Origin: Methylophaga sp. OBS4 | GTDB lineage: Bacteria > Pseudomonadota > Gammaproteobacteria > Nitrosococcales > Methylophagaceae | Direction of reading: 5' to 3' | DNA length: 34,730 nt | NCBI RefSeq assembly: GCF_026319305.1 | Contig: NZ_JAPDMV010000028.1 | Location: forward strand, 1 to 34,730 | Part shown: piece after piece, positions 26,006 through 34,534 of the stretch | Layout of the letters: each line of letters opens with the position of its first letter | Position numbering within the stretch: position 1 is the first letter of the stretch | Translations under genes and position numbers: made by a program | Notes under the pieces: model-generated | Database searches by the model: none | What the model saw: the letters and a program-made list of their open reading frames with translations, nothing else | Told to the model about the DNA's origin: nothing

Positions 26006-26097
26006 AGTATCAAATTAGTGCATTTTTGTCATCGCACTGTAATTTAATTTAAAAAATTATTATAAAACATATACTTAAATATTGGCATTAAGATTGC
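26006..26097 (+). promoter_or_regulatory. Sigma-54 promoter of the porin gene, with upstream NtrC-like site
   Basis: TGGCATTAAGATTGC at 26083-26097 fits TGGCAY-N5-TTGC, with the required GG-to-GC spacing. The predicted start is about 26109. An imperfect NtrC-like site, AGTATCAAATTAGTGCA (26006-26022), lies about 95 bp upstream; it differs by a few bases from the best nirB site. Confidence 0.85.
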
Positions 26098-26108
26098 TAA
26101 GTCACACG

Positions 26109-26206
26109 GAGTGAATCTGCAATGATGCAGCAACTTTTATAACCCATTTCTTTTAACCCAAGGTAACGAAGCCATAACCTGCTTGCAGGTTATGGCTTTT
26201 TTTTTT
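26109..26206 (+). ncRNA. ANTAR-type attenuator leader upstream of the porin
   Basis: Order in the predicted transcript: hairpin P1 CTGC-AATGAT-GCAG (26117-26130), a hexaloop with A1 and G4; hairpin P2 GGT-AACGAA-GCC (26162-26173), a hexaloop with A1 and G4 and a short stem; then a terminator of GCCATAACCTGC (26171-26182) pairing perfectly with 26185-26196, followed by ten T. P2 uses the GCC that starts the terminator's 5' strand, so the two cannot form together. ANTAR proteins are known to bind paired hexaloop hairpins with A1 and G4 and thereby prevent termination. The porin ATG follows 13 nt after the T run. Confidence 0.8.
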
Positions 26207-26219
26207 GCGAGGAAAAACC

Positions 26220-27479
26220 ATGCCACAAATGAAAAAACTCACTGCCCTGACGATCCTGGCTACAGGAATGAGCAGTTTTGCCATCGCCCCTGCGGCCCAG
26301 GCTGAAGATGCATTTTTTGATGCGCTGACTGGTGGTAAAGCCAGTTTCTCAGCACGTGTGCGTTATGAATCAGTAGAACAGGATAATGCATTGAAAGATG
26401 CTGATGCGCTGACGTTACGAACCACATTGGGTTATAAAACCGGCGCTTTCCACGGTTTCAGTGGTTTTGTTGAGTTTGAGGATGTGTCTGATATCGGTTC
26501 AGCCAATTTTAACAGCACCACTAACGGCGAAGCAGATCATTCAGTAGTGGCTGATCCTGATGGTACCGAAGTCAACCAGGCTTACCTGGCTTATAACGGC
26601 TTTGATACCGAAGTAAAATTCGGCCGTCAGGAAATCACCTATCGTGATGCGCCGTTCCATCGTTTTATCGGTAACGTGTTATGGCGTCAGAACCATCAAT
26701 CATTTGACGCATTGAGCCTCAGCAATACCTCGCTGCCTGATACCAAAATCAGCTATGCCTATATCAATAAAGTTCACACGATTTTTGGTGATGACCGTGA
26801 TGCCGCCGCTGCTTTTATTGAAGATGGCGATATCGATATGGACACGCATCTGTTTAATATCCAGTACAGCGGCTTGCCAATCGGTAAGTTGGAAGGCTAT
26901 ACCTATCTGTTGGATTACACCGATGCGCCTGATGATAACGCGGCTTCCAGAGCTACTTATGGTTTACGTCTGAGTGGGGCCCAAGCGATTAGTGATGCTG
27001 CGAAAGTGCTCTATACCGCTGAATATGCCACTCAGGACGATTATGCCGATGGTGAAATGGACAGCCAGGATTATTACTTGCTGGAACTGGGCGGTAAATA
27101 CAAGAACTGGCTAGCCAAAGTGTCTTATGAAGTACAGGAAGGTGACGGGACCTTCAGCTTCAGAACGCCACTGGGTACCAACCATGCCTTCCAGGGCTGG
27201 GCTGATCAGTTCCTGAACACGCCGACACAAGGTCTGGAAGATCTGTACTTTACTGTTGCCGGTAATGTTTTTGGCGCCAAACTGGTTGCTGTTTACCATG
27301 ACTTTGAGACTGATGAAAGCAGTCTGGATGCCGGTAATGAACTCGATATTCTGTTAGAGAAAACATTCAAAGAGCATTACACCGTGGGCGTGAAATATGC
27401 CGACTACAATGCTGATAAAGAGTTTCCATCATTGGTCGATACAGAAAAATTCTGGGTTTACGGACAAGTTAAGTTCTAA
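26220..27479 (+). CDS. Outer-membrane porin, alginate-export-like fold, probable nitrate/nitrite entry channel
   Basis: 419 residues with a signal peptide (core LTALTILATGMSSFAIAP, cleavage after AQA) and a beta-barrel rich in aromatic, Asp and Gly residues, ending in VKF (C-terminal Phe insertion signal). Patterns such as ARVRYESVEQ near the start of the mature protein and FGRQEITYRDAPFHRFIGNVLWRQN resemble the alginate-export porin family. The start is ATG 26220 (AGG 7 nt upstream); an in-frame TTG at 26205 lies in the terminator T run. The position inside the nitrate cluster, the sigma-54 promoter and the ANTAR leader make an anion-uptake role likely, though the barrel itself does not show the substrate. 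Confidence 0.82.
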   Translation: MPQMKKLTALTILATGMSSFAIAPAAQAEDAFFDALTGGKASFSARVRYESVEQDNALKDADALTLRTTLGYKTGAFHGFSGFVEFEDVSDIGSANFNSTTNGEADHSVVADPDGTEVNQAYLAYNGFDTEVKFGRQEITYRDAPFHRFIGNVLWRQNHQSFDALSLSNTSLPDTKISYAYINKVHTIFGDDRDAAAAFIEDGDIDMDTHLFNIQYSGLPIGKLEGYTYLLDYTDAPDDNAASRATYGLRLSGAQAISDAAKVLYTAEYATQDDYADGEMDSQDYYLLELGGKYKNWLAKVSYEVQEGDGTFSFRTPLGTNHAFQGWADQFLNTPTQGLEDLYFTVAGNVFGAKLVAVYHDFETDESSLDAGNELDILLEKTFKEHYTVGVKYADYNADKEFPSLVDTEKFWVYGQVKF

Positions 27480-27556: not shown

Positions 27557-27671
27557 TGCACCACAATTGTTCAGCTTGCAGATTACTAAGCCCATTTTGT
27601 AGCAAACCAACAAGGCTTGTTTTTCTTATGTAATTGAAAATTATAAATAAAATACTTGGCACAGCTTATGC
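27557..27671 (+). promoter_or_regulatory. Sigma-54 promoter and NtrC site of the regulator operon
   Basis: TGGCACAGCTTATGC at 27657-27671 has the invariant GG and GC at the right spacing (one departure, ATGC for TTGC). The NtrC-like site TGCACCACAATTGTTCA (27557-27573) matches 12 of 14 consensus positions and centres about 118 bp before the predicted start (about 27683). The 27-nt leader has no attenuator. Confidence 0.82.
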
Positions 27672-27709
27672 AGAATTCAATAGGCAATCAACCATGGAGG
27701 AGCAGCGTT

Positions 27710-27823
27710 ATGGGTTATCTAATCGATTTAATGTATCTGCTGAAAGAGTTGGTGAAGTTAGTGTTTATGGTCATGATTTCACCATTGGGCATCATGGCCG
27801 GTTTTCTAATTGCCTGGGAATAG
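27710..27823 (+). CDS. 37-residue membrane peptide, first gene of the NIT-ANTAR operon
   Basis: A short frame with a strong Shine-Dalgarno GGAGGAG (27697-27703) 6 nt before its ATG, starting 27 nt after the predicted transcription start. The sequence begins MGYLIDLMYLLKELVKLVFM and continues VMISPLGIMAGFLIAWE: almost entirely hydrophobic, with two lysines and two glutamates, so one long or two short membrane segments. It ends 38 bp before the NIT sensor gene. I know no family for it. Placement ahead of a membrane-anchored sensor suggests a role in assembling or tuning that sensor (inference). It could also be a translated leader that affects expression of the next gene. Confidence 0.7.
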   Translation: MGYLIDLMYLLKELVKLVFMVMISPLGIMAGFLIAWE

Positions 27824-27861: not shown

Positions 27862-28725
27862 ATGTATCCGATGTTTATTAGTGCTATGACGGTGACCTTG
27901 TTGGTATATGCCGGTATTCGGTTTGCAACCGTCAAGCGCGAAGCGAAAAGTCATATTCAAAAAGGAATCATACTGACAGTTCACCTCAAACGTCTGATTG
28001 ACAACTGTCAGAAACATCGCGGCACCAGCAACGCGATCAATCAGGGTAACAGCAAACTGAAACCGCAACTGGTGAGCTTACAAGCCGATATCGACAGGCT
28101 GGTCACCAGTAGTGACAGCAGTGTTCTACACCGCTTCCCGCAGTGGGAATCCTTTATGGAACACTGGCCGCGCTTGAAGAAACATGTGCTGGAAGGCAAT
28201 CTGGAATCACGTAATATTGTCCGTCAGCACAGCTTGATGATAGACGGGCAATTGTCGTTGCTTGATGATGTGATGCGTTATCACAATTTGCACAAAATGA
28301 TGCTGGATCGCTGTACCCGGGTTTCGGAAATCTGTCTGGACACATTGCGGGTTGCCGAAACCGTCGGACAGATGCGGGCTGTCGGTTCTGGCATCTGTGC
28401 CCGCGGCCAATGCGAAGGTTCCGATAGAATCGTCCTCGATTTTTTACGAATATCTGTGCAAAGCACGACCGATGAGTTATTGAAAGAAATCAATGCAATC
28501 AATAACAACACCTTGCATCAAAATCTGCTGACGACTTCCGCAGCTATCAAGGACAGTGTCGGCAAACTGATGACCATGGTAGAAAAACAAGTGCTGCAAG
28601 AGGGCAAATTGCAAGTTGATTCCAATGATTTCTTCGATGCTTCGACCAGCGCTATTGATGAAATGCTGAAAGTGTTTGGCATTATTATTCATTATGCTTC
28701 GCAACAACACATCCGAATGATATGA
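27862..28725 (+). CDS. Membrane-anchored NIT-domain nitrate/nitrite sensor
   Basis: 287 residues from ATG 27862 (GGAG 7 nt upstream). One N-terminal TM helix (about 5-21, FISAMTVTLLVYAGIRF) is followed by Lys/Arg, so the rest is predicted cytoplasmic. The remainder is an all-helical NIT domain: LKRLIDNCQKHRGTSNAINQ with the (E/H)RG-x-S signature at 52-56, the central VAETVGQMRAVGSGICARG, and the C-terminal DFFDASTSAIDEMLKVF. In NasR the NIT domain binds nitrate or nitrite and is fused to ANTAR. Here no ANTAR follows in the same chain; instead the next gene, overlapping by 4 bp, encodes it. The frame is open further upstream to 27634 but that is before the promoter. Probably the signal-receiving half of a split NasR. 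Confidence 0.82.
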   Translation: MYPMFISAMTVTLLVYAGIRFATVKREAKSHIQKGIILTVHLKRLIDNCQKHRGTSNAINQGNSKLKPQLVSLQADIDRLVTSSDSSVLHRFPQWESFMEHWPRLKKHVLEGNLESRNIVRQHSLMIDGQLSLLDDVMRYHNLHKMMLDRCTRVSEICLDTLRVAETVGQMRAVGSGICARGQCEGSDRIVLDFLRISVQSTTDELLKEINAINNNTLHQNLLTTSAAIKDSVGKLMTMVEKQVLQEGKLQVDSNDFFDASTSAIDEMLKVFGIIIHYASQQHIRMI

Positions 28726-29342
28726 GCGACGCCGCTATGAGTTCTTCAACTGTGATTAATACCATTGTGATCAGCGAGCAGCCGCAAACGGCCGCTAAAT
28801 TAAAGGCTGTACTGAACGATAGCGACTATAAAGTGATTTTTGAAGGCAGCAACCTGCAACAATTACTGACATTAAAATGGCGTGTGGAACCGGAATTGAT
28901 CATTGCGGTAATGGAAACCAGTGACAGCCAGGTTCTGAGCAAATTCAAAGTGATCAATGAACAGTTCCCGCTGCCTATTGTTATCTTCACTCATGATGAT
29001 CGCGATGATGCCATTGAGCAGGCTATCGAAGCGGGCGTCAGTGCCTATATTGTTGACGGCTTTCGTGAAGATCGCGTTCAACCTATTCTGCGTACGGCCA
29101 TGGCCCGTTTTCGGCAATACCGGTCAATGCAGAAACAGCTTCAGGAACTGCGTACATCACTTGCTGACCGCAAGATCATCGATCGGGCAAAAGGATTGAT
29201 CATGCAACAACGGCAGTGCAGTGAAGATGAGGCTTACCGCCTGCTCAGAACCTCAGCGATGAACCAGAATATGCGTCTGGCAGCCCTGGCACAGAATATT
29301 CTGGCCACAGCCGACTTACTGGAACCCCGAAAAACCGTCTGA
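28722..29342 (+). CDS. nasT: NasT-like ANTAR antiterminator with degenerate receiver domain
   Basis: 206 residues. The N-terminal part (about 10-130) is a receiver-like fold resembling NasT (PIVIFTHDDRDDAIEQ, AGVSAYIVDGF), but the position of the usual phosphoacceptor Asp appears to be Val63 (PELIIAVMETSD), so it is probably not phosphorylated. The C-terminal ANTAR RNA-binding domain (about 140-197) is textbook: LADRKIIDRAKGLIMQQ, then CSEDEAYRLLRTSAMNQN. ANTAR proteins bind paired hexaloop RNA hairpins to block transcription termination. Its start overlaps the stop of the NIT gene (ATGA), implying coupled 1:1 synthesis. The partner in known NasT systems is NasS, an NrtA-like protein; here it should be the NIT protein. 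Targets: the leaders at 26109 and 29508. Confidence 0.92.
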   Translation: MSDAAMSSSTVINTIVISEQPQTAAKLKAVLNDSDYKVIFEGSNLQQLLTLKWRVEPELIIAVMETSDSQVLSKFKVINEQFPLPIVIFTHDDRDDAIEQAIEAGVSAYIVDGFREDRVQPILRTAMARFRQYRSMQKQLQELRTSLADRKIIDRAKGLIMQQRQCSEDEAYRLLRTSAMNQNMRLAALAQNILATADLLEPRKTV

Positions 29343-29359: not shown

Positions 29360-29496
29360 TGCACAGAAAGAGTGCAGTCTGAGCGGCTGCGAGCTAAAGG
29401 TGTACACGCTGTCAGCATAAATTTAATTGATTTATTTTTTAACTGTATGATTTGTAGGTAAAAAGTATTTAAGTATTTTGTTGGCATATTATCTGC
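29360..29496 (+). promoter_or_regulatory. Sigma-54 promoter and NtrC site of the nitrate importer operon
   Basis: TGGCATATTATCTGC at 29482-29496 keeps GG and GC at the sigma-54 spacing (CTGC for TTGC). TGCACAGAAAGAGTGCA (29360-29376) is a GCAC-N7-GTGC palindrome of NtrC type centred about 140 bp upstream of the predicted start (about 29508). Confidence 0.82.
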
Positions 29497-29507
29497 TAAC
29501 TATACGC

Positions 29508-29608
29508 TGAGTTATCACCCAATGGCGGGTGCAAAAAAGTAATTCATTTTTTATTCGGATAAAGACGTCCTTATTAAGCGAGAGCTTGATGAGCGCGTCT
29601 TTTTTTTT
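29508..29608 (+). ncRNA. ANTAR-type attenuator leader upstream of nrtA
   Basis: Hairpin P1 CACCC-AATGGC-GGGTG (29517-29532), a hexaloop with A1 and G4. Hairpin P2 GGAT-AAAGAC-GTCC (29557-29570), a hexaloop with A1 and G4 and a U.G closing pair. Terminator: from AAAGACG at 29561 an almost continuous stem of about 19 pairs (one mismatch, several G.U) to CGTCTTT, with loop GAGA and a T run ending at 29608. The P2 3' half is part of the terminator 5' strand, so the structures exclude each other. The layout matches the porin leader although the sequences differ, which argues for function. The nrtA ATG is 22 nt downstream. Confidence 0.82.
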
Positions 29609-29630: not shown

Positions 29631-31034
29631 ATGCAACATAACGCTTTATTAACGACGCGCCGCAAGATTATCAAAACACTGGCTGCTGCCAGTCTGGTGT
29701 TGGGAAGCGGTCTTATGCCGGTCAGTGTGCTACAGGCCGCTCCGGGCGAAATAGAAAAGCCCGAGTTGAAGTTTGGTTTTATCAAACTGACGGATATGGC
29801 GCCGCTCGCGATTGCATATGAAAAATTCTTTTTTGAAGATGAAGGCCTGTACGTTTCGTTAGAAGCCCAGGCCAACTGGAAAGTACTGCTGGATGGGGTT
29901 GTCGACGGTAAGCTGGACGGCGCGCATATGCTGGCAGGTCAGCCACTGGGGGCCACCATTGGGTTTGGTACCAAGGCGGATATTATCACTGCTTTCAGCA
30001 TGGATCTGAATGGTAACGCCATTACCGTTTCCAATGATGTCTGGGAACAGATGAAACCGAATATACCGGTAGGGGAAGACGGTGAACTGCAGCATCCTAT
30101 CAGTGCTGAGGCACTGAAACCGGTTGTCGATTCCTATAATGCGCAAGGTAAGCCTTTCAATATGGGCATGGTGTTTCCGGTTTCCACCCATAACTATGAA
30201 CTCCGTTACTGGTTGGCAGCCGGTGGTATCAACCCCGGTTATTACGCCCCGCACAAAGGTGACACCTCAGGCACCATCAAGGCTGATGCCCTGCTGTCCG
30301 TAACACCGCCGCCACAAATGCCTTCCACCATGGAAGCAGGCACTATCTATGGTTACTGCGTCGGCGAACCCTGGAACCAACAAGCCGTATTTAAGGGCAT
30401 CGGTGTTCCGGTGATTACCGATTACGAGATCTGGAAAAACAATCCGGAAAAAGTGTTCGGGGTCAGTAAAGAATGGGCTGACAAATATCCCAATACCCAT
30501 ATTGCCGTTGTGAAAGCACTGATTCGTGCTGCTGCCTGGTTGGATGAAAACAATAATGCCAACCGTCCGGAAGCGGTAAAAATCCTGTCTCAAAGCAACT
30601 ACGTGGGTGCTGACTATGAGGTGATTGCCAACAGCATGACCGGTACTTTCGAATATGAGAAAGGTGACAAGCGTGCGGTGCCTGACTTCAACGTGTTCTT
30701 CCGTTATAACGCGACTTACCCATACTACAGCGACGCTATCTGGTACCTATCGCAAATGCGTCGTTGGGGGCAGATTGCCGAGCCTAAAGCGGACAGCTGG
30801 TATATGGATATCGCCAAAAAGGTCTATCGCCCCGATATCTATGCTATCGCAGCGAAAGAACTAATCGAAGAAGGCAAGCTGGATGCTGCCGCTTTTCCTG
30901 ACTTTGACTCCGAAACCGGTTTCAAAGCACCTCAAACCGAGTTTATCGACAACATTACCTTTGACGGTACTCAGCCTAATGCCTATCTGGAGCAATTCCC
31001 GATTGGCCTGAAAGGTGATGAGGTTGTTGAGTAA
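29631..31034 (+). CDS. nrtA: Nitrate ABC transporter substrate-binding protein (NrtA/CmpA family)
   Basis: 467 residues. The N-terminus [19 protein letters not shown] has twin arginines and a hydrophobic core, so Tat export is likely (cleavage near LQA). The mature part fits the NrtA/CmpA oxyanion-binding family: [22 protein letters not shown], then [21 protein letters not shown], the periplasmic-binding core [13 protein letters not shown], and [24 protein letters not shown]. No lipobox Cys. The Shine-Dalgarno GGGAG lies 8 nt before the ATG. First gene of nrtA-nrtB-nrtD. The presence of an export signal distinguishes it from the cytoplasmic sensor NasS. Confidence 0.93.
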
Positions 31035-31054
31035 TACCCAGAAACAACGTAGTT

Positions 31055-31080
31055 CAGGCTGCCTGCACGCAGGCAGCCTG
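31055..31080 (+). other. Intercistronic hairpin between nrtA and nrtB
   Basis: CAGGCTGCCTGC-AC-GCAGGCAGCCTG is a perfect 12-bp inverted repeat without a T run. As in other ABC operons, such a hairpin probably stabilises the binding-protein mRNA or partly ends transcription, giving more NrtA than permease. Confidence 0.75.
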
Positions 31081-31111
31081 ATTGTTTCGACCCAATATAT
31101 AAAGAGTGAAA

Positions 31112-32134
31112 ATGAAAGATAAACTGATTTATTTTCTGGAATTGACCGGCTTTAGCTGGTTTATACCGCTGGTGAAACTGGCCAGTGGTGAATCTCCGAA
31201 ACATCAATTGCAGGATCTGGCCAAAATGGTCGGGGTGCCGCTATTTGCCATTGTGGTGTTTTTGATGTTCTGGCATATGGGAGCCGCTAAAATCGTCACC
31301 AGTCTCGGTCAGGTGCCTGGCCCGGTCCAAGTGTGGGAACAAGCCAATGTGCTCGTTAAGGAACATTATGAAGAACGCGAACGCGAGCAAGGATTTATCG
31401 AGCGCCAGGAAAAACGCAACGCGGCCAAGCTGGAAAAAGATCCCGATGCAGAAGTGACCATCCGTCCCTACACCGGCAAAGAAACCTTTTTCGACCAGAT
31501 TCTGACCAGTCTGGAAACGGTGTTTGTGGGCTTTCTACTGGCCAGTCTGATTGCCATTCCCATCGGTATTATCAGCGGCTTGAGCAATACCTTGTATTCG
31601 GCAATTAATCCGCTGATTCAGGTTTTCAAACCGGTTTCGCCCTTGGCGTGGCTGCCGATTGTGACGATGGTGGTCAGTGCGTTGTATGTGTCGCAGGATC
31701 CGATGTTTGCGAAATCATTTATTACTTCGGCCATTACCGTGATGTTGTGCTCCTTGTGGCCTACTTTGATTAATACCGCCGTCGGTGTTTCGTCGATTGA
31801 CAAGGACTTGATCAATGTCGGTCGTGTATTGCGGCTTAATTACATCACCACGGTGTACAAAATTGTGGTTCCTGCTTCGATTCCGATGATTTTCACAGGT
31901 TTGAGAATTTCGCTGGGTATTGGCTGGATGGTGTTGATCGCGGCAGAAATGCTGGCACAGAGCCCGGGACTGGGCAAGTTTGTCTGGGATGAGTTCCAGA
32001 ACGGTAGCTCCAGCTCCTTGAGCCGCATTATGGTCGCCGTGCTGACCATCGGCATCATCGGCTTTATTCTGGATCGCATCACGCTGACCTTCCAGAAATT
32101 CTTCTCTTACGATAAAAACGCGATTATTCGCTAG
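31112..32134 (+). CDS. nrtB: Nitrate ABC transporter permease
   Basis: 340 residues from ATG 31112 (AAGAG upstream; a GTG two codons earlier is the alternative). An N-terminal helix lies near residues 38-58, then a charged stretch (YEEREREQGFIERQEKR) about 90-120, and five helices in the BPD-type permease domain. The coupling (EAA) loop is DKDLINVGRVLRLNYITTVYKI followed by VVPASIPMIFTGLRISLGIGW, the motif of NrtB/SsuC/TauC permeases (long stretch split here). The charged periplasmic or cytoplasmic insert after the first helix is typical of NrtB-like proteins of this type. Next to the ATPase with an 8-bp gap. Confidence 0.92.
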   Translation: MKDKLIYFLELTGFSWFIPLVKLASGESPKHQLQDLAKMVGVPLFAIVVFLMFWHMGAAKIVTSLGQVPGPVQVWEQANVLVKEHYEEREREQGFIERQEKRNAAKLEKDPDAEVTIRPYTGKETFFDQILTSLETVFVGFLLASLIAIPIGIISGLSNTLYSAINPLIQVFKPVSPLAWLPIVTMVVSALYVSQDPMFAKSFITSAITVMLCSLWPTLINTAVGVSSIDKDLINVGRVLRLNYITTVYKIVVPASIPMIFTGLRISLGIGWMVLIAAEMLAQSPGLGKFVWDEFQNGSSSSLSRIMVAVLTIGIIGFILDRITLTFQKFFSYDKNAIIR

Positions 32135-32142
32135 GACATATC

Positions 32143-33000
32143 ATGGATAAATATCTCAACATTGACCACGTCAGTATTGAATTTCCCACGCCCAACGGCC
32201 CGTTCAAGGCGCTGGATAATATCAACCTGAAAATTAATAAAGGTGAATTTGTCAGCATTATCGGCCACTCGGGTTGCGGTAAATCAACAGTGATGAATAT
32301 CGTCGGTGGTTTGTATCAGGCTACCGAAGGCGGTGTGGTGCTGGAAGGGCGTGAGGTGAATGACCCCGGTCCGGATCGCGCCATTGTGTTCCAGAATCAT
32401 TCCCTGTTTCCGTGGCTGACCTGTTATCAGAACGTTGAACTGGCGGTGAAGTCGGTATTCGGCAAAACCCGCAGCAAAAAAGAAAGGAAAGACTGGATTG
32501 ATCACAATCTGGAACTGGTGCATATGAGCCATGCCAAACATAAACTGCCATCGGAGATTTCGGGTGGTATGAAACAGCGTATCGGTATTGCTCGGGCTTT
32601 ATCCATGGAACCCAAAGTGTTGCTGATGGATGAACCGTTCGGTGCGCTGGATGCTCTGACCAGAGCCCATCTGCAGGATTCCTTGATGGAGATCCAGGCT
32701 GAACTCAATAACACGGTGATGATGATTACTCACGATGTCGATGAAGCGGTGTTACTGTCTGACAAGATTGTGATGATGACCAATGGGCCGGAAGCGACTA
32801 TTGGCGAAGTCTTGGATGTCAAACTCGCCAGACCCCGCAAGCGACTCGATCTTGCCAGTGATACGGATTACAACCACTATCGCTCCGAAGTCATCCATTT
32901 CCTCCATGAGCGGCATGCCAAAAAATTGCCCAGGAGTCTGCCGGACTTAGGTGCTCGTAGCGAGAGACAGTCCGGTTTGACTGCAGTAGGACAGTCCTAG
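32143..33000 (+). CDS. nrtD: Nitrate ABC transporter ATPase
   Basis: 285 residues. Walker A GHSGCGKST (41-49), Q-loop FQNHSLFPWLT, signature SGGMKQRIGIARAL, Walker B VLLMDEPFGALDALT and the switch His in ITHDVDEAVLLSDKIVMM are all intact. It belongs to the NrtD/SsuB/TauB type and powers the permease above. The fused regulatory ATPase NrtC of cyanobacteria is absent, so one ATPase probably works as a homodimer. AGGA lies 6 nt before the ATG. Confidence 0.94.
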   Translation: MDKYLNIDHVSIEFPTPNGPFKALDNINLKINKGEFVSIIGHSGCGKSTVMNIVGGLYQATEGGVVLEGREVNDPGPDRAIVFQNHSLFPWLTCYQNVELAVKSVFGKTRSKKERKDWIDHNLELVHMSHAKHKLPSEISGGMKQRIGIARALSMEPKVLLMDEPFGALDALTRAHLQDSLMEIQAELNNTVMMITHDVDEAVLLSDKIVMMTNGPEATIGEVLDVKLARPRKRLDLASDTDYNHYRSEVIHFLHERHAKKLPRSLPDLGARSERQSGLTAVGQS

Positions 33001-33162: not shown

Positions 33163-33315
33163 ATGCAACGAGCAATGATGCGGCCGGTAACCTTGATAAC
33201 TTACATGAACCGGTATTATGCCCAGCGGCGGGATGGCGGAGTACAAGCGGATGTTGAACAGACTTTTAATGCGATACGGCTATATGTCGACTGTGACTGT
33301 ATCTGGGTGCATTAA
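33163..33315 (+). CDS. Possible small protein overlapping the EAL gene start
   Basis: The frame from ATG 33163 (MQRAMMRPVTLITYMNRYYA, then QRRDGGVQADVEQTFNAIRL) runs 50 residues to TAA 33315. A GTG at 33151 is an alternative start. No clear Shine-Dalgarno. The amino-acid composition looks protein-like, and the frame overlaps the first codons of the EAL gene, allowing translational coupling. No family recognised; it may be a chance frame. Confidence 0.3.
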   Translation: MQRAMMRPVTLITYMNRYYAQRRDGGVQADVEQTFNAIRLYVDCDCIWVH

Positions 33316-34534
33316 ACAATCGGATGGAGCCTACGCCACCAGCTATAAAAATCTGACTTTAACCAGTGCATTTCAACCCATTTTCAGTATTTCTCACCGG
33401 CGTCCGGTGGGTTACGAAGGCCTGCTGCGAGCTACAGATATAAACGGTCAGGCCTATTCACCGCTGGATGTACTGATGTTGCCACAGTCCAGTTTTGCCC
33501 ATCTGGCTTTGGATAGAACGTGCAGGAAATTACATCTTCGTAATTTTGCTTGTCAGCAAACCGGTAATAGCTGGTTGTTTTTGAATCTTAACTCTCAATG
33601 CCTGGTCACGGAGCGCCCTGATACCGGCTTTATGAATGGTCTTTTTGAGCTGGCCGGCATTCCGCCACGCCGGATCGTGATAGAAATTCTGGAGAGTGAA
33701 ATTGATGATCGGGATTACTTAAAACAACTGATTACACATTTCCGCAGTCTGGGCTGTTTGATTGCGATTGATGATTTTGGTGCCGGACATTCCAATTTTG
33801 ACCGGATCTGGGAACTGGAACCGGATATCGTAAAAATCGATCGCAGCCTGATCCGGCGAGCCGGCATTTCTTCTAAAATTGAGCGGATCCTGATCGGTAT
33901 TGTGTCATTGATTCATGAAGCGGGAAGTTTGGCGTTGATAGAAGGGGTGGAAACGGAAAAAGAAGCCCTGATAGCCATTGCCGCTAATGCCGATATGGTT
34001 CAGGGATATTATTTTGCTAATCCCGATCCCATAATCTGCAACAATCAGGATTTTGCTCGTGATATAGATGCCTTGCTTCATACGCAGCAACGACTCAGAA
34101 AGCTAAACACTAATGAATTGCATCAACATTTTATAAAGTTTGAGGCGCGCTACAAAGAGGCTATTGACCTGTTTCTGACAACATCGAAGTTTGAAAGCTG
34201 CGCCGATATTCTGTTTGAGGAGGAGCGGGCGGTCAGATGTTATCTGCTGGACGAAGAAGGTTACCAGCTGGCACGAAGCCTTTACTCTCCACGTTATCGG
34301 GAGCAACTTGATGAGCGTTTCACACCGCTGCTTGCCGGCGATTACGCTAACTGGTCGCATAAGCATTATCACTACCGTGCAATCAATCGCCCTGGGAAAA
34401 TACAGGTAAGCAGACCTTATTTATCTGTGGCCGGCTCCCATATGTGTATTACGGTATCGCAGGCGATAGTGCTGTATGACAAACTTTATGTATTTTGCTG
34501 TGATTTGGAATGGCAAGACGAAGAAGGCGTTTGA
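33251..34534 (+). CDS. EAL-domain cyclic di-GMP phosphodiesterase with C-terminal sensory domain
   Basis: 427 residues if ATG 33251 is used (GGAG 9 nt upstream); 33218 and 33284 are alternatives. EAL domain at about 30-275: LTSAFQPIFSISHRRPVGYEG (here EGL replaces EAL but Glu is kept), LFLNLNS, IEILESEIDD, IAIDDFGAGHSNF, VKIDRSLI, LIEGVETEKE and QGYYFANP, so the metal and catalytic residues appear complete. The C-terminal domain (about 290-427: FESCADILFEEERAVRCYLL, SLYSPRYREQLDERFTP, ANWSHKHYHYRAINRPGK) resembles the PAS/Cache-like domain of YkuI-type EAL proteins. No GGDEF. Independent of the nitrate operon because a terminator intervenes. Confidence 0.85.
   Translation: MLNRLLMRYGYMSTVTVSGCIKQSDGAYATSYKNLTLTSAFQPIFSISHRRPVGYEGLLRATDINGQAYSPLDVLMLPQSSFAHLALDRTCRKLHLRNFACQQTGNSWLFLNLNSQCLVTERPDTGFMNGLFELAGIPPRRIVIEILESEIDDRDYLKQLITHFRSLGCLIAIDDFGAGHSNFDRIWELEPDIVKIDRSLIRRAGISSKIERILIGIVSLIHEAGSLALIEGVETEKEALIAIAANADMVQGYYFANPDPIICNNQDFARDIDALLHTQQRLRKLNTNELHQHFIKFEARYKEAIDLFLTTSKFESCADILFEEERAVRCYLLDEEGYQLARSLYSPRYREQLDERFTPLLAGDYANWSHKHYHYRAINRPGKIQVSRPYLSVAGSHMCITVSQAIVLYDKLYVFCCDLEWQDEEGV

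Follow-up and report, generated by a model that had tools for sequence, protein, structure and literature searches.

How a nitrate sensor and an RNA-binding antiterminator might work together when they are made as two separate proteins is the question raised by a locus of Methylophaga sp. OBS4. The window, i.e., the whole stretch of 34,730 nucleotides that was analyzed, is an entire contig (C24); the genome it belongs to measures 2.55 Mb at a completeness of 83.55%. On its forward strand lies a gene for a nitrate-sensor-like, NIT-only protein with one N-terminal hydrophobic stretch (27862-28725; 287 codons from the ATG at 27862), which is followed by a NasT-like gene encoding a degenerate receiver and an ANTAR RNA-binding domain (28722-29342; 206 codons). 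The two genes share the bases ATGA (28722-28725), and the NIT protein, the NasT-like protein and the 4 bp overlap described in an earlier note on this DNA are all present at these coordinates and on this strand. Further along the same strand are nrtA (29631-31034; Pfam NMT1_2), nrtB (31106-32134; Pfam BPD_transp_1) and nrtC (32143-33000; Pfam ABC_tran), which we take, from family knowledge, to encode a nitrate ABC transporter (29631-33000) and which are presumed to form an operon under ANTAR control.

The NIT protein matches the Pfam NIT model over residues 45-270 (E 2.2e-8) and has no NCBIfam match at E<=1. Its hydrophobic stretch (residues 4-22) is moderate, with a mean Kyte-Doolittle value of 1.65 and values of at most 1.05 past residue 40, in agreement with the single transmembrane segment described earlier. 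The basic sequence RFATVKREAK directly follows this stretch; a basic flank marks the cytoplasmic side according to the positive-inside rule, and the NIT domain should thus face the cytoplasm. In a fold search with the AlphaFold2 model (pLDDT 91), the only PDB entry at E <0.001 was Klebsiella NasR (4AKK), recovered with both chains at TM 0.62 and 0.66 and rmsd 6.0 and 5.5, and searching PDB sequences with the NIT profile yielded no credible match (best E 0.43). The QxxR and GxxR motifs of the domain are strongly kept, Q50, R53 and R172 in 21/21 NIT relatives and G169 in 18/21. PMC8199190 states that in NasR a glutamine takes the place of one glycine of the GxxR nitrate motif while the two arginines are retained, and QxxR plus GxxR in the NIT protein is the very pattern stated there; seven NasR-like sequences carry the same two motifs as placed by eye. 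Nitrate or nitrite may be bound by R53 and R172. Relatives of the NIT protein in a genome collection amount to 18 loci, 17 from Methylophaga and one from a Gammaproteobacteria bacterium, and the genome itself contains one NIT protein above the Pfam cut-off; two further NIT-like stretches belong to frames 671 and 689 aa long.

The second partner is the single ANTAR protein of the genome (Pfam ANTAR E 6.3e-21), in which the receiver scores below the Pfam cut-off (26.4 vs 30.2 bits) and to which NCBIfam offers far sub-threshold matches only. Alignment to EutV places Val63 at the phospho-Asp position, as the earlier note had it, and an Asp is found there in 0/31 relatives; the receiver therefore differs from those of classical two-component response regulators in having no phospho-acceptor. 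EutV of Enterococcus is the best structural match of the predicted model (pLDDT 80, pTM 0.61), with Rv1626 and AmiR also among the best. EutV itself is activated through phosphorylation by a kinase, and the acceptor Asp is absent from the window protein. Three plasmid NasT proteins show 39-40% identity over 85-88% of its length, and each of their genes overlaps by 4 bp an NrtA-like (NasS-like) gene on its 3' side.

The arrangement of the two genes is conserved. At E<=0.001, an ANTAR match occurs in 39/63 genomes of the order, and the NIT profile A1 has a match in 28/63. The survey for adjacent NIT-only and NasT-like genes that had been suggested for this locus was made on 31 strong ANTAR loci of the Methylophaga family, one per genome, two further short-contig places of G048 having been dropped; ANTAR has a NIT gene immediately on its 5' side in 21 of them, 17 from the window's genus, one (G002) from a second genus and three (G010, G016, G021) from a third. 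NIT and ANTAR are two open reading frames in different frames in 21/21 pair loci, with a 4 bp overlap in 11, a 17 bp overlap (from an ATG) in six and a gap of 2-21 bp in four, and their adjacency is beyond chance. The ten NIT-less loci are those of G045, G034, G015, G017, G051, G029, G028, G006, G004 and G018, and their genomes hold no NIT profile A1 match at E<=0.001; the NIT-less status of G051, in which nrtA is broken, refers to 576 upstream bases only. Among weaker or other-family ANTAR matches, the sample read consists of ten stretches (G053b, G052b, G031, G001, G010b, G038b, G002b and G058-G060), none with a NIT beside it. Mapped on the ANTAR tree, for which the outgroup gave no clean root, the NIT label changes five times, which fits repeated NIT loss. 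NIT genes also occur apart from such pairs: G023 carries a NIT-only gene (L141, minus strand) after nitrate-reductase-like and porin genes and yields no ANTAR match, and G047 has a second NIT-only gene, without a TM stretch, directly 5' of nrtA (L142:3494-4315), its NIT-ANTAR pair sitting elsewhere, 5' of an EAL gene.

The evolutionary distances of the two proteins go together as well. The distance correlation between NIT and the ANTAR domain is 0.94 (0.84 with the porin's removed), that between NIT and the receiver 0.81 (0.62), and that between the receiver and its own ANTAR domain 0.75 (0.49); these values come from 16 of the 21 pair genomes, with one control gene (porin) and a permutation unaware of the tree. 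In a class sample of 369 genomes read by eye, NIT and ANTAR share a single open frame in nine (G114, G168, G188, G283, G300, G332, G397, G408 and G424), and a split, stand-alone NIT directly next to ANTAR was seen only in two genomes of the window's genus, G000 and G049, the latter found through the NIT profile. The Pfam NIT model gives no match in the pair-bearing G016, G047, G049 and G052, and split pairs outside the family may thus be undercounted. Two further class genomes show other layouts: in the single-contig genome G080 (L228), a few hundred bases separate NIT from ANTAR and the two are in different frames, which looks like a NasR-like gene that has undergone a frame change, and in G183 the NIT belongs to an open frame of 699 aa, with an ANTAR roughly 1 kb away on the opposite strand.

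The likeness of the effector to the plasmid NasT proteins, taken together with a window assembly that is 83.6% complete, would accommodate an ordinary NasS-NasT system with nasS at another place or in sequence missing from the assembly. The window contains no NasS-like gene and its NrtA is exported, as had been claimed; this holds on extension to the whole genome, where the genome-wide nasS search proposed earlier recognized none in the 84% complete assembly. Two strong NMT1_2 proteins are encoded there, one being the exported NrtA and the other having a twin-arginine-like signal together with a permease of its own. Nor was a NasS recognized in the 13 pair genomes with a listed completeness of >=99% (G010, G021, G035-G038, G041, G042, G049, G050 and G052-G054), in which NMT1_2 proteins besides NrtA reach at most 89 bits, against 188, 223 and 237 bits for three NasS-like controls; in G010, the protein with an NrtA-like score lies on a separate contig and was taken as NrtA by that score. 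A NasS elsewhere is unlikely on this comparison and, with a NasS-like gene standing immediately next to nasT in the three plasmid loci, we regard an ordinary NasS-NasT system as very improbable. The pair is real, conserved and without a recognized NasS, and a NIT sensor acting in trans is thus the natural reading.

A third component accompanies the pair. A gene for a 37-aa hydrophobic peptide (27710..27823, forward strand) precedes NIT and was read in 21/21 pair loci; the peptide probably spans the membrane. In the cultured M. thiooxydans DMS010, the order of the genes is peptide, NIT, ANTAR and nrtA. Differences at codon positions 1/2/3 number 2605/1147/4295, mostly at the third position, as counted over all pairs of 21 sequences with related pairs entering many times. 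Neither Pfam nor NCBIfam matches the window peptide at E<=1, and in the 369 class genomes convincing matches are confined to two genomes of the window's genus, three others matching at E ~0.005. These two genomes carry a second copy (own genome C47, L242, and G049 C2, L243; E 2.3e-10 and 2.8e-7) beside an oppositely directed gene that by its look is tsaB-like; with this paralogue, the family of the peptide extends beyond nitrate loci. The two-part picture of the earlier note accordingly stands as regards the NIT/NasT-like pair and falls short as regards the operon, which also includes a conserved membrane peptide.

This peptide could itself bind the ANTAR protein directly and dock it there in the membrane, with NIT acting on the peptide or adding an input, and with NIT-less loci being peptide-plus-ANTAR switches that take another input. 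In keeping with such a role, a peptide profile of 17 rows matches just 5' of ANTAR in three NIT-less loci, G045 (E 4.5e-21), G034 (E 1.1e-16) and G006 (E 1.5e-16), and finds nothing beside the ANTAR-less NIT of G023 or the second NIT copy of G047. However, seven of the ten NIT-less ANTAR loci give no match to the profile either, and the peptide is short and has its second copy elsewhere, so that we consider the peptide unlikely to be the direct partner. At the NIT-less G034 locus (L067), read by eye, an MFS nitrate transporter-like gene takes the place of nrtABC after peptide and ANTAR.

The probable target of the ANTAR protein lies between its gene and nrtA, in a leader element on the forward strand that comprises two hairpins and a terminator. 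Hairpin P1 (29516..29531) reads CACCC-AATGGC-GGGTG and hairpin P2 (29557..29570) GGAT-AAAGAC-GTCC, each with a hexaloop that has A at position 1 and G at position 4; P2 overlaps an intrinsic terminator with a U run (29561..29608; -22.7 kcal/mol, z -5.8), the 5' arm of which is formed in common with the loop and 3' arm of P2. As given in PMC3369931 and PMC7496416, ANTAR leaders consist of two hairpins with A1/G4 hexaloops, the second lying over a terminator, and the nrtA leader has both such hairpins and the overlapping terminator. Taken alone, P1 and P2 fold little above shuffles (z -1.7 and -0.6). Over 14 leaders, P1 and P2 pair in 91.4% of cells, compared with 37-48% for slid versions, and 15 cells are changed on both sides with a covariation score of 0.331, each of these three values being reached by 0/500 shuffles; double-change pairs and further pair types are not above shuffles, being reached by 37/500 and 472/500, respectively. 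The terminator keeps its pairs in 98.8% of cells over the same leaders, although the U run lets slides of +2 and +3 still pair in 83% and 82%, respectively.

Searches were made with two models of this element. Model R2, which was built from nine leaders of two other genera without the window's genus and searched over 24 sources, is an independent test of the leader element: in the window it matches the leader alone, at E 5.9e-9, and elsewhere the leaders of G055, G048, G044, G050 and G049, plus one chance-level match, the leaders of the remaining window-genus loci not being found. Model R1, made from all 14 leaders and run with stricter filters at which weak matches are lost, finds 17 places in 15/63 genomes, each immediately 3' of an ANTAR gene; since 14 of these 15 genomes supplied R1 rows, the result mainly tells that no second site was seen. 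An R1 match is absent in 11/21 pair genomes. By eye, P1 is kept and P2 or the terminator changed or missing in G035, G038 and G040-G042, and in G036, G037, G047 and G052-G054 there is no nrtABC after ANTAR and no target was recognized anywhere. At gathering thresholds, Rfam reports two tRNAs in the window and misses the nrtA leader.

Promoter-like sequences were found by a pattern scan before both operons. One sigma-54-like site, TGGCACAGCTTATGCA (27657..27672, forward strand), lies 5' of the peptide-NIT-ANTAR operon, another, TGGCATATTATCTGCT (29482..29497, forward strand), 5' of nrtA, and a third (26083-26098) before the porin gene at 26205-27479, a homologue of which adjoins many of the family loci. 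The pattern, TGGCAY-N6-TGCW, was picked after two of its sites had been seen, and its three sites in the window compare with 0.65 expected, a count of at least three being reached in 3/100 shuffles. A scan for NtrC sites with <=3 mismatches gave 99 in the window vs 110 expected, and no NtrC site is claimed because the count lies below expectation; TGCACAGAAAGAGTGCA, at about 29360, nevertheless resembles the NtrC consensus. After nrtC, at 33218-34534, stands an EAL-domain gene (c-di-GMP phosphodiesterase-like), and an EAL homologue lies directly 3' of ANTAR in G036, G037, G045, G047 and G052-G054, which makes a link of nitrate to c-di-GMP possible.

Ten of the 15 genomes with an R1 match have a NIT; the other five (G004, G006, G018, G028 and G029) combine ANTAR and the RNA element without NIT or a recognized NasS. 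These NIT-less loci and those with peptide and ANTAR indicate that the ANTAR protein of some relatives does without NIT. The ANTAR protein could even be active alone, or be regulated by its amount through the sigma-54 promoter, with NIT feeding a different output, for instance the EAL protein encoded downstream. G028 and G029 (99% complete), which keep the RNA element without NIT, peptide or recognized NasS, speak for this, as does the EAL gene after the locus in the window and directly after ANTAR in the seven genomes named above. However, NIT adjoins ANTAR and not EAL in 21/21 pair loci, NIT and ANTAR distances co-vary, and a nitrate-blind NasT would differ from its characterized kin (PMC3795266), which together render an autonomous ANTAR protein decidedly unlikely. 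The sensor in trans put forward in the earlier note thus gains from the conserved split pair without NasS and from the co-varying distances, with the reservation that NIT is dispensable in some relatives; at the window locus, NIT is probably the sensor.

We propose, with somewhat better than even confidence, a nitrate-responsive antitermination switch for nrtABC in which one protein senses and another acts on the RNA. Computation shows the conserved order of the genes, the NIT fold and motifs, the loss of the phospho-Asp and the conserved P1/P2/terminator element, and on these features the following course of events is built. A sigma-54-type promoter would give one mRNA for the 37-aa membrane peptide, NIT and the ANTAR protein, and the NIT sensor would be anchored in the membrane facing the cytoplasm. 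Without nitrate, the membrane parts, presumably including the peptide, would keep the ANTAR protein inactive by contact with its acceptor-less receiver. Binding of nitrate or nitrite by the NIT arginines R53 and R172 would free the ANTAR protein, which as a dimer would bind P1/P2 in the nrtA leader and block the overlapping terminator, allowing nrtABC to be transcribed. Two parallels support this course: nitrate dissociates the NasS-NasT complex (PMC3795266), and NIT keeps ANTAR off in NasR (PMC7496416). Speaking against it are the ten NIT-less ANTAR loci, five of them with the RNA element, the 11 pair genomes without an R1 match, six of which have no recognized target, the weak folding of P1 and P2 taken alone, the two covariation measures not above shuffles, the NIT genes away from ANTAR in G023 and G047, the moderate hydrophobic stretch of NIT and the second copy of the peptide.

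Compared with known systems, the locus resembles NasR in its NIT fold, its QxxR/GxxR motifs, its ANTAR output and the two-hexaloop leader RNA 5' of a nitrate-assimilation operon. However, NasR is one soluble NIT-ANTAR protein without a receiver, whereas here a separate, membrane-anchored NIT is combined with an effector that has a receiver. With NasS-NasT of Paracoccus, Azotobacter and rhizobia, it shares the two-gene design of a sensor and a pseudo-receiver/ANTAR effector in trans, a nitrate-assimilation target and the 4-bp overlap seen in the three plasmid loci; it differs in that the sensor is a NIT and not an NrtA-like cytoplasmic NasS, that it is membrane-anchored and joined by a small membrane peptide, and that its gene lies 5' of the ANTAR gene and not 3' as NasS does. 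AmiC of Pseudomonas is a soluble, periplasmic-binding-protein-like sensor of amides. In AmiC-AmiR, a ligand-sensing partner silences an ANTAR pseudo-receiver in trans (PMC3795266), and EutW-EutV has in common with the locus a REC-ANTAR effector as well as the P1/P2/terminator logic (PMC3369931). Separate NIT and ANTAR partners or this peptide were not found in the titles and abstracts of the literature covered, which includes little of the subscription journals. New at this locus are the RNA target in the nrtA leader, the conserved peptide and the sigma-54-like sites before both operons; RNA target, peptide gene and NIT-less loci are absent from the earlier note, to which the last were not visible.

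A bolder extension, which we put forward only tentatively and consider doubtful, is that peptide and membrane-tethered NIT jointly tether the NasT-like protein to the inner membrane until nitrate sets it free, as one case of a wider rule by which membrane NIT proteins act in trans on varied outputs. The wider rule is suggested by seven other stand-alone NIT genes of Gammaproteobacteria that adjoin chemoreceptor genes. These short genes from the class genomes (L181, L184, L185, L186, L187, L190 and L192; open frames of 273-357 aa) lie directly 3' of a chemoreceptor gene in 7/7 cases, often overlapping it, and the neighboring chemoreceptors have an MCP signalling domain and no Pfam ligand-binding domain; they are possible split nitrate chemoreceptors.

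At the window locus, a NasR-type sensor appears to be joined to a NasT effector via proteins in trans. If true, this would show how a pseudo-receiver can swap its signalling partner, link a membrane-anchored sensor to control at the RNA level and add an uncharacterized small membrane protein, and the predicted RNA target and the named cultured strains make direct testing feasible. In some marine methanol-eating bacteria, the uptake of nitrate thus seems to be under the control of a new mix of known parts.
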